From Campylobacterales bacterium (GTDB lineage: Bacteria; Campylobacterota; Campylobacteria; Campylobacterales; Sulfurospirillaceae), in assembly GCA_016930915.1 (NCBI GenBank), contig JAFGFU010000034.1, forward strand, positions 1-51,130: a stretch of 51,130 nucleotides of DNA, read 5' to 3'. Within the stretch, counting starts at the first letter, position 1. Each line of letters opens with the position of its first letter. Shown here piece by piece: positions 27,957 through 32,640 of this stretch. Both the position numbers and the translations under genes were made by a program. The notes under the pieces were generated by a model that was not told the DNA's origin, made no database searches, and saw only the letters and a list, made by a program, of their open reading frames with translations.

Positions 27957-29294
27957 TTACTTTCCAAGGCAAAACTGCCCAAACATTTTATCCAAAATTT
28001 CATCCCTCTCAAATGCCATAGAAATAGAAGAAATAGCCATGATAGCATCATTTAAATGAAAAGCAAAGAGTTCTAGCTCCCCTTCTCCTAAAAGAGCATA
28101 CGACGCTTTAACATTTTCATATGTCTTACGTACAGCATCTATTTGTCTTTGTGATGTTAACAATAAATTATCTTCGTGTGTCGTTTGATCCAAAATACTA
28201 TGCAGAGCCTCTATAATATGCTGTGCATCTTTTTGGCACTCCAGGGCAATAAACTCTTTACCTAAACGTTTTGTGTCAAAACAACTGGCTAAATCCGTTT
28301 TATTAAGGACCATAAGAATTTTTTTATCAGCAGAATATTGACTTAGAAGATTTAAAATTTCTTCATCTTCATGATCACATACACGGCTATTATCAAACAT
28401 CGCAATCACTATTTCAGACTCTTCAATGGCTAAAATAGAACGCTCGATTCCAATTTTTTCGATGGCATCATGCGCTTGCCTAATACCCGCCGTATCGACA
28501 ATCTTTACCAAATGCGTTCCAATACGAAGCTCTTCTTCAATTGTATCGCGTGTGGTTCCTGCAATATTACTAATAATAGCCCTGTCATAACTTAAAAGTG
28601 TATTTAAAAGAGAACTCTTACCAACATTCGGTTTTCCAACAATTGCTATTTTAAAACCATTAATAAGCCCTTGACGCCGTTGACTACTCTCATATGTTTT
28701 GAGAAGATCTTTGGATAAAGCATCTAATTTTATTTTAATTTGATCCATCATATCTAACGGCAAATCTTCTTCAGCATAATCAATATTAACTTCTACAAAT
28801 GCAAGTATTTCAACCAAAAGATTTCTTACATGTAAAACAAAATTTCGCAGTTCGCCTTTAAGTTGGCGTGTCAACATTTTTGCAGCATCCACACTTTTTG
28901 TCTCAATTAATGCAGCAATCGCTTCTGCTTCACTCAAATCTATTCTGCCATTTAAAAATGCCCTCTTTGAAAATTCACCAGGATTTGCTAATCTCACCCC
29001 ATAATGAAGAAGTGTTTGTAAAACCATTCCAGCAACAACACTACCACCATGACACTGAAATTCAACAACATCTTCTGCGGTAAAACTATGCGGTGCTTTA
29101 AAATAAAGGACAATAGCCTGATCAATCGCTTCATCCATAAAATCATATAAAAAACACAGCGTAGCGACACGAGGCGTAAAACTCTCTTTATGAGAAAGCT
29201 TTTGAGCAAAAAAATAAGCTTCAGGTCCACTAACACGAACAATAGCAATGGACCCAACACCTGAGCTGGTGGCAATAGCAGCAATAGTATTTAT
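27957..29294 (-). CDS. mnmE: tRNA modification GTPase MnmE, AUA start
   Basis: MnmE with MnmG makes the cmnm5U34 wobble modification. From the ATG at 29138 the protein would lack its first 52 residues. The frame stays open to 29294 and encodes the classical N-terminus NTIAAIATSSGVGSIAIVR. The codon where Met is expected is ATA (29294-29292); stops lie just beyond and there is no ATG, GTG or TTG between. An AGGA site lies 7 bases before it. The product is then 445 residues, normal for the family. It has the N-terminal folate domain, a G domain with GKPNVGKSSLLN and DTAGI, and the C-terminal CLGK motif. Confidence 0.88.
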   Translation of the reverse strand: MNTIAAIATSSGVGSIAIVRVSGPEAYFFAQKLSHKESFTPRVATLCFLYDFMDEAIDQAIVLYFKAPHSFTAEDVVEFQCHGGSVVAGMVLQTLLHYGVRLANPGEFSKRAFLNGRIDLSEAEAIAALIETKSVDAAKMLTRQLKGELRNFVLHVRNLLVEILAFVEVNIDYAEEDLPLDMMDQIKIKLDALSKDLLKTYESSQRRQGLINGFKIAIVGKPNVGKSSLLNTLLSYDRAIISNIAGTTRDTIEEELRIGTHLVKIVDTAGIRQAHDAIEKIGIERSILAIEESEIVIAMFDNSRVCDHEDEEILNLLSQYSADKKILMVLNKTDLASCFDTKRLGKEFIALECQKDAQHIIEALHSILDQTTHEDNLLLTSQRQIDAVRKTYENVKASYALLGEGELELFAFHLNDAIMAISSISMAFERDEILDKMFGQFCLGK

Positions 29295-30250
29295 GCGTTT
29301 TTCCTATTAAAATCATTTACGACGATAAACTTACCGCCATCTTTTCCTGACTTAATTCCAACATATTTTTCAGGAAATGCTGCACGAAGTGCTTCAAGAG
29401 CAATTTTAATTAACACACCATCTAAAATCTTTGTTTGACCTTTTCCACTGTTACGAATACGCTCAATAACAGGTGCCAAATATTTTTCAATCATCTCTTC
29501 TTGATTTTTCAAAAATTCTGCAATTTCTAAACGAATATTTAGGCCATACTTTAGATTAATCCAATTGTAAAGAAGATAAGAAAGAGCCTTATAACGATAG
29601 CCCTCTTTTCCAATTAATAGTGCAGCATCTTCACCACTAAATTCAATGAGTATCGTATCATCATTGTACTTTGTCACGATAGGCGACTCAAGTGTAAAAC
29701 AACTGTATTTAAATAAATGCTTAATCTGAACGTTCACTTCATCAATAATATCATTCATTGAACGTTTTTCTTGATGAAAATTCTGATCAATAGCCGTTGA
29801 TACTACAAGCGTCTGCTTGAGCTCTTTTGAAGTATGTTTAACGATTTCTAAAGAAGGTTCTTCCTTAAAAAAAGAGTCCTCTTTAGGAGGAAGAGATGCT
29901 ATTTCTGGATTTTTTTCAGAATTTTCATGAGGAATAAAATCTCTATTTTTATTTTTAGCACGTCTGTTTTTGGCACGTCTATTTTTATCTTTTTTTTCAT
30001 CACAAGAAGAGACATCTATCTCTTTTTGACGCTCTTGATGAAAAGTAGAAGATGGCTTATTTTCCTTGAATTCTTTATGTTTATCGCCTTTACGTTGAAC
30101 ATCAATAATGGCATTTTTTTTAAATAAGCCTAAAAAACCATTGGAACCATTTTGGATAATATTTATATCCAATTCCACCACTGAACAAGACAACTCACTC
30201 GCAGCTTTAGAATAAGCTTCTTGGAGCGTTGATGCTTCAACTCTTATCAT
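29291..30250 (-). CDS. jag: Jag/KhpB-family RNA-binding protein
   Basis: Jag (KhpB) binds RNA and affects cell-wall growth and membrane protein insertion; it travels with yidC in many bacteria. The 319-residue product has the Jag-N domain (1-52, EASTLQEAYSKAASEL and GFLGLFKK), a long charged linker with the repeated basic word NRRAKNRRAKNK (about 93-104), a KH domain with GEDAALLIGKEGYRYKAL, and a short R3H-like end (ALEALRAAFPEKYVGIKSG). It overlaps yidC by 4 bases, and its stop codon TAA overlaps the ATA start of mnmE. Confidence 0.9.
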   Translation of the reverse strand: MIRVEASTLQEAYSKAASELSCSVVELDINIIQNGSNGFLGLFKKNAIIDVQRKGDKHKEFKENKPSSTFHQERQKEIDVSSCDEKKDKNRRAKNRRAKNKNRDFIPHENSEKNPEIASLPPKEDSFFKEEPSLEIVKHTSKELKQTLVVSTAIDQNFHQEKRSMNDIIDEVNVQIKHLFKYSCFTLESPIVTKYNDDTILIEFSGEDAALLIGKEGYRYKALSYLLYNWINLKYGLNIRLEIAEFLKNQEEMIEKYLAPVIERIRNSGKGQTKILDGVLIKIALEALRAAFPEKYVGIKSGKDGGKFIVVNDFNRKNA

Positions 30251-31844: not shown

Positions 31845-32183
31845 TTATTTCAATGTTTTAAAAGCTTTTACCACGTAAAAACTTTGCTTATCTTTTGGAA
31901 CAAACCAAAAAGTAATGTGGTGTTTATATAGTGATTTTGAGAGCAAAAGAAGAGGAAATGCAAATTCTTTTTTAACAACAGGATAATCAATCCCTCCAGC
32001 AAAAAGTTGATTGCATTTCAAAATTCGTATAAAACTATAAAAGAGAGCTTTTAAAAAACCATTGTGTAGAAGCTGCTCTTTAGCGTATTGTGAACACGTT
32101 GGATAATACCGACAACTTCCATAACCAATCAGTGTAAAAAACTTCTGATAAAGCTTTATTAAAAACAGCGCAAATTTTTTCAT
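31845..32183 (-). CDS. yidD: Membrane protein insertion efficiency factor YidD
   Basis: YidD is a small, membrane-attached protein that assists YidC-dependent insertion. The 112-residue product has the DUF37 pattern FLIKLYQKFFT, SCRYYPTCSQYAKEQL and RILKCNQLFAGGIDYP, with its conserved cysteines. I set the start at 32183, where ATG overlaps the rnpA stop codon (ATGA). The C-terminal 30 residues extend past the usual family end. Confidence 0.9.
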   Translation of the reverse strand: MKKFALFLIKLYQKFFTLIGYGSCRYYPTCSQYAKEQLLHNGFLKALFYSFIRILKCNQLFAGGIDYPVVKKEFAFPLLLLSKSLYKHHITFWFVPKDKQSFYVVKAFKTLK

Positions 32184-32518
32184 TCTTTGACACAGTTTAA
32201 TTTCTTCATTGACCATAAAATACCTTTTTTTAAAGTATCATAGGGTAAATGATTTATCTTCTCTTTTGCTACAAAAACATACACACCATCTGACAAAGTG
32301 TGTTGAATTTCTAAAAAAATAGCACGAAGTCGCCTTTTTGCTAAATTTCGCTTAATAGCATTTCCGACTTTCTTACTTGCCGTAAAGCCAACTTTTTTTG
32401 TTGTATCTTGATTGTAAAAGACCAAGGCACCTTCATAGTGCCATTTTTTTGCGTGATTATAAACGGATGAAAACTCTCGCGTTGTTTTGAGAGTTTCATA
32501 CTCTTTTAAACGGCCAAT
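32180..32518 (-). CDS. rnpA: Ribonuclease P protein component, AUU start
   Basis: RnpA is the protein subunit of RNase P, which matures tRNA 5' ends. The nearest usual start, a TTG at 32425, gives only 81 residues and cuts off the conserved N-terminal part. The frame remains open to 32518 and encodes [17 protein letters not shown], the expected beginning. No ATG, GTG or TTG occurs there; ATT at 32518-32516 is the only near-cognate in the right place, with AAAGG 9 bases before it. This yields 112 residues, normal for RnpA. The core [17 protein letters not shown] is intact. It overlaps rpmH by 13 bases. Confidence 0.85.
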
Positions 32519-32640
32519 CTTTTTCTACCTTTAGCACGACGTGCAGAAATAACTTTACGTCCACCTTTAGTTTTCATTCTAAGTCTAAAGCCATGTGTGC
32601 GCTTTTTAGGTGTACTATGTGGCTGATACGTTCTTTTCAT
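32506..32640 (-). CDS. rpmH: 50S ribosomal protein L34
   Basis: L34 is a 44-residue basic protein of the large subunit. The translation begins [18 protein letters not shown] and ends [12 protein letters not shown], matching the family over its entire length. An AAGGAAC ribosome site lies before the ATG at 32640. It heads the operon rpmH-rnpA-yidD-yidC-jag-mnmE. dnaA is not next to it, unlike in many bacteria. Confidence 0.96.

Follow-up and report, generated by a model that had tools for sequence, protein, structure and literature searches.

The jag-mnmE junction of the window (the whole stretch of 51,130 nucleotides analysed here, contig JAFGFU010000034.1 from a Campylobacterales bacterium of the Sulfurospirillaceae) raises the question of where ribosomes begin to translate mnmE, as the position of the initiator methionine is occupied by an ATA codon. 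An earlier note, made from the sequence of the window, had taken this ATA for the start and had described an AGGA site 7 bases before it, an overlap with the jag stop codon in the form ATAA, and a conserved MnmE N-terminus running in frame for 52 codons before the first ATG. All of these features are found where they were described (Table 1). On the minus strand the 3' end of jag reads TTT AAT AGG AAA AAC GCA TAA, and the mnmE frame, which is the -1 frame relative to jag, reads TAG GAA AAA CGC ATA AAT ACT ATT GCT GCT across the junction. From just past this TAG the mnmE frame is open for 448 codons to the stop at 27957, and, in agreement with the note, it contains no ATG, GTG or TTG between the TAG and the ATG at 29138. 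The two genes form an overlapping pair, in which stop and start overlap and the Shine-Dalgarno sequence lies within jag.

Table 1 Features of the jag-mnmE junction and of the rnpA frame in the window.
Feature	Position	Strand	Remarks
mnmE	27957..29294	minus	445 codons counted from ATA; TrmE_N, helical and G domains complete; C-terminal FCLGK
Putative mnmE start codon ATA	29292..29294	minus	upstream stretch and first 52 codons free of canonical starts
jag stop codon TAA	29291..29293	minus	shares two bases with ATA (ATAA); ATAG in most relatives
AGGA Shine-Dalgarno core	29302..29305	minus	7 nt before ATA
In-frame TAG	29304..29306	minus	closes the mnmE frame 3 codons before ATA
First in-frame ATG of mnmE	29136..29138	minus	lies within TrmE_N; rejected as biological start
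jag/khpB-like gene	29291..30250	minus	carries Jag_N and HP1451_C domains; upstream member of the overlapping pair
rnpA frame (RNase P protein)	32180..32524	minus	N-terminus without canonical start; conserved ATT at 32518-32516

The protein encoded downstream from the junction has the domains and the C-terminal motif of MnmE, the tRNA cmnm5U34 GTPase. PF10396, PF12631 and PF01926 all match, TIGR00450 scores 383.6 bits against a cut-off of 252.6, and the C-terminal C-x-GK motif is present as FCLGK. The residues that follow from the ATA, (I)NTIAAIATSSGVGSIAIVRVSG, make up a complete MnmE N-terminus; the Pfam match to TrmE_N (PF10396) begins at model position 1, equivalent to MnmE residue 3, and solved MnmE structures align with the window protein from residue 2 or 3. 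A shorter MnmE beginning at a downstream ATG, GTG or TTG is what automatic gene callers would predict, and the ATG at 29138 is the only canonical in-frame start on offer. Such a protein would, however, lack the N-terminal strand of the TrmE_N domain, the first canonical codon ranges from +16 to +97 codons among relatives, and the region upstream of all these canonical codons is under strong purifying selection (pN/pS 0.15). We regard a downstream start as extremely improbable.

A comparison of the overlap among relatives, which the note had proposed, was made with 130 mnmE loci, 47 of which (42 distinct genomes) lacked a canonical start over the stretch that runs from the upstream stop as far as codon +4. 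Every one of these 42 genomes has ATA at the start position, and so does the sister genome G022, whose MnmE is 98% identical to that of the window. A sequencing or assembly error at 29292-29294 would need only one base, a true G, to restore ATGA, but with the same codon in 42 distinct genomes, including several complete single-contig assemblies, its probability is negligible. In a MnmE tree of 121 rows, 41 with ATA and 80 with a canonical start, there are at least 8 changes. ATA is carried by 32 of the 36 rows of the family (Sulfurospirillum and kin), by a five-row clade whose records are labelled Campylobacteraceae MAGs, and by four rows placed further away; L094 and L051 lie on long branches of this tree, where their placement is unsure. 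The 80 outgroup and other rows have ATG, GTG or TTG at or just before the equivalent position. When only family genomes were searched, the exact pattern GGAA-N6-ATA-MnmE matched 33 of 44, and the reversed control matched none.

The base following the ATA is G in 35 of the 42 genomes (ATAG) and A in the other 7 (ATAA), and a jag stop was present at the overlap position in all 31 genomes checked. It had been suggested in the note that a single G-to-A change converted ATGA to ATAA, and this part is not supported. Judged from the aligned junctions, ATA is ancestral in the genus in the form of ATAG, and since almost all relatives read ATAG, the lineage of the window, together with its sister G022, is the one that changed ATAG to ATAA and thereby mnmE codon 2 from GAT to AAT. 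By the same comparison AUA has been kept at the mnmE start position across the family for a long time. The phenomenon is also broader than the note supposed, being lineage-conserved and common to other genes (see below). The codon is dispensable, as it has been replaced by GTG in S. arcachonense and by ATG in two relatives (L027 and L043); in these three relatives (L026, L027 and L043) the AGGA is altered to AGAA or AAAA. The L038/L060 junction has an ATA 7 nt from AGGA, a GTG two codons further on and an in-frame TAG before them. The mnmE start of L038, where the AGGA is kept, is ambiguous and possibly represents an intermediate between AUA and GTG.

The spacing of the Shine-Dalgarno sequence points to the ATA as the site of initiation. 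The distance from AGGA to the ATA is exactly 7 nt in 39 of the 42 genomes, and in L036 and L061, where an insertion has moved the conserved ETIV/DTIA motif three codons further from the ATA, the spacing is still 7 nt, showing that the ATA is tied to the Shine-Dalgarno sequence and not to the protein motif. Codons 2-16, a stretch preceding every canonical codon in the 31 genomes compared, have a pN/pS of 0.148. In the same 31 genomes codon 1 is invariably ATA, while the isoleucine codon 4 varies among ATT, ATC and ATA. With an AUH codon (AUA, AUC or AUU) at the methionine position, a Shine-Dalgarno sequence at the proper distance and conservation in relatives, mnmE shows these three features of genes with near-cognate AUH starts (infC/pcnB/ccpN type).

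The -1 frame of mnmE and the A-rich run before the junction could also be read as signs that ribosomes slip back one base at AGG AAA AAC, shortly before jag ends, and so make a Jag-MnmE fusion (programmed -1 frameshifting). A conserved slippery heptamer joined to a frame open into mnmE was not found among the relatives, however. Conservation of the A-rich run breaks down in L025 (AGGAAAGCTCC) and L029 (AGGAAAAGCAA). The frame is closed by a TAG directly before the ATA in L038 and by a TGA two codons before it in L042, which excludes frameshifting from jag in these two. The fixed AGGA-ATA spacing of 7 nt and the different frame relations of the other ATH-start genes to their upstream genes also speak against frameshifting, which we find very improbable.

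The best reading of the comparative data appears to be genuine AUA initiation of mnmE, by reinitiation after jag, at a start that is intrinsically weak. We put at roughly 85% the probability that the AUA at 29294-29292 is read in this way by the ordinary initiator tRNA and is one of a set of AUH starts kept in the family. Ribosomes would finish jag at the overlapping UAA or UAG and be repositioned by the AGGA located 7 nt upstream from the ATA, whereupon the normal initiator tRNA with its CAU anticodon would reinitiate at AUA with a mispairing at the third base. Initiation of this kind would be expected to be several-fold weaker than from AUG, setting a low MnmE:Jag ratio, and to depend on initiation fidelity (IF3). 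Both effects, less MnmE and a dependence on IF3, had been suggested in the note and are plausible. The initiator tRNA of G015, a complete sister genome of 2.31 Mb, is ordinary in its CAU anticodon, its GGG/CCC stem and its C1-A72 mismatch. An altered initiator tRNA was considered and rejected, the G015 initiator being normal. The gene for IF3, infC, is the classic AUU-start gene. In G015 infC (L140, about 81716) appears to start with TTG (UUG), which means that IF3 may lack here the AUU/AUA-based self-control that it has elsewhere, and infC was dropped as a candidate AUH gene in this genome.

Other genes of this type were sought in G015 by a blind scan for coding signal upstream of the first canonical start. 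The scan gave 27 candidates, most of which were spurious upstream extensions; the only ones that looked genuine were mnmE, queA, tsaB, a DsbD-like gene, rnpA and a dCache sensor gene. This census refers to a single genome, and its threshold misses genes in which a canonical codon follows soon after the true start. A comparison of the window with G015 gave mostly antisense shadow ORFs, the only real cases being mnmE and rnpA.

For queA (queuosine synthesis; L282-L311) the starts in 27 family genomes are ATA in 15, ATC in 9 and ATT in 3, with ATG in none of the 27, and in most of them an in-frame stop lies two codons upstream. The tsaB-like gene (t6A synthesis; L312-L341), whose identity is based on a weak family match (E 9.5e-6) under the cut-off of the model, has ATA in all 24 family genomes with an aligned start, and the ATA always overlaps the upstream stop as ATAA. 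The DsbD-like gene, encoding a DsbD_2 membrane protein (L342-L371), starts with ATT in 12, ATA in 10 and ATC in 5 of 27 family genomes, again with ATG in none, and ATG occupies the aligned position in the outgroups G039 and G052. The genome from which the window derives has ATC in queA (L287) and ATA in both tsaB (L313) and the DsbD-like gene (L344). The pN/pS values in codons 2-16, 0.148 for mnmE, 0.203 for queA, 0.265 for tsaB and 0.160 for the DsbD-like gene, argue that these stretches are translated, the test being weaker for tsaB and the DsbD-like gene than for mnmE and queA because some genomes have a canonical codon within codons 2-16 (from codon 8 in tsaB and from codon 6 in the DsbD-like gene). 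A pattern restricted to ATH codons would also fit an internal isoleucine codon, a possibility opposed by the in-frame stops directly upstream.

The rnpA frame of the window runs in from the 3' end of rpmH and has there a conserved AAG ATT, which is also present in three genomes from other families of the order; the query sequence used for rnpA was approximate (82% to G015). Its start is probably the AUU given in Table 1, a position where the choice of base is constrained by rpmH. The dCache sensor gene (L148:1299-2234, minus; G015:C1:242234) has TAAGGAG 6 nt before an ATT. In G015 no canonical start follows this ATT for 12 codons, and homologues of the gene occur in most of the genus; an AUU start is possible. 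Collectively, the aligned starts indicate that the family holds a small set of AUH-start genes consisting of mnmE, queA, tsaB and the DsbD-like gene, with rnpA as a probable further member.

If these starts are weak, the weakness may have been selected or merely tolerated. For mnmE the junction reads ATAG in 28 of 31 family genomes, and an AUG at this position would destroy the jag stop, so that the overlap itself may be what locks the AUA in place, and for mnmE the case for a selected weakness is not proven. A frozen accident of this kind, in which a jag UAG across the mnmE start put AUG beyond the reach of one mutation and the weak start was tolerated without being selected, would account for the ATAG junctions, and MnmE is not a high-abundance enzyme. 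Three relatives have nevertheless regained GTG or ATG by shifting the start one or two codons, which shows that escape is possible, and the other genes are not locked. An AUG is one third-base change away, with the upstream stop left intact, for queA in 25, for tsaB in 24 and for the DsbD-like gene in 20 genomes; of the 71 resolvable cases in these three genes, 69 are one harmless change from AUG, and none uses it. For queA and for the DsbD-like gene, at least 5 changes each from one of ATA, ATC and ATT to another have nevertheless taken place. As a yardstick, third-base G is absent from only 12 of 146 conserved four-fold columns of queA, tsaB and the DsbD-like gene, and from 0 of 37 two-fold A/G columns of the same genes. 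In bacterial starts AUG is normally favoured by selection (PMC5622118). An AUG that is one harmless change away yet unused argues that weakness of the start itself has probably been selected in queA, tsaB and the DsbD-like gene, and the simplest account is that they are kept at a weak start. The company of these genes suggests that the same may apply to mnmE. A frozen accident at mnmE we consider possible but unlikely.

A wider proposal would be that Sulfurospirillaceae and some neighbours possess a regulon of deliberately weak AUH starts, rich in genes for tRNA maturation (mnmE, queA, tsaB and probably rnpA), the joint output of which would follow initiation fidelity (IF3 or the supply of initiator tRNA) and so tie tRNA modification to the condition of the translation apparatus. 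We hold this to be doubtful, and the tRNA theme may in part reflect ascertainment. A family with several AUH starts on tRNA-modification genes, none of them reverted to an AUG that is a single mutation off, would constitute a directly testable case of natural selection for inefficient initiation. In bacteria conserved AUH starts are known in very few cases, in the searchable literature mostly as single genes. Annotation limited to ATG, GTG and TTG would shorten MnmE, QueA, TsaB and RnpA in the Sulfurospirillaceae group, and the data suggest that AUA, AUC and AUU starts have been kept weak by evolution and missed by genome annotation. In a search to which most subscription literature was closed, no report of a non-canonical start in mnmE, queA, tsaB or Sulfurospirillum was found.

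As a kind, conserved non-canonical starts are already known from infC, pcnB, sigR, ccpN and cvfC1, as far as described in PMC5472188 and PMC13009471. What is new relative to the searchable literature is the family-wide set, the ATAG/ATAA overlap of stop and start, and a demonstrable avoidance of AUG. In Escherichia coli, infC has an AUU start through which IF3 is autoregulated, as mentioned in PMC5472188. It resembles mnmE in that a near-cognate AUH codon occupies the conserved start position behind a Shine-Dalgarno sequence, but gene, lineage and codon are different, and control by IF3 is demonstrated for infC and would be expected for mnmE. The E. coli pcnB gene likewise has an AUU start (Binns and Masters 2002, as cited in PMC13009471). 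Here, as in mnmE, an inefficient AUH start is placed on a gene of RNA metabolism, although pcnB is a single gene as opposed to a family set. We know of no overlap between the pcnB start and an upstream stop.

IF3 represses non-canonical starts, and the GTC start of Streptomyces sigR has been proven experimentally to be repressed in this way (PMC5472188). Like the proposed mnmE start, that of sigR is conserved and non-canonical and escaped annotation, and the balance with an operon partner may matter in both cases; unlike it, sigR has GTC in place of AUH, is a different gene and is backed by experiment. In Staphylococcus aureus AUA starts are used by infC, ccpN and citZ and an AUU start by cvfC1, and AUA starts give about 10% of AUG initiation, with ccpN attaining up to 30% when the medium is rich (PMC13009471), efficiencies which may not carry over to mnmE. 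The AUA start of ccpN is conserved among relatives, as is that of mnmE, but the S. aureus AUA and AUU genes have an extended Shine-Dalgarno sequence whereas mnmE has the AGGA core only. Moreover, the S. aureus starts were shown by Ribo-Ret and reporters, while that of mnmE is known from sequence comparison, and the overlap with the stop of an upstream gene sets mnmE apart from them. In that overlap jag-mnmE resembles the coupled gene pairs joined by ATGA, with two bases shared between stop and start and the Shine-Dalgarno sequence inside the upstream gene, but here the start would be AUA and the stop is UAG or UAA.
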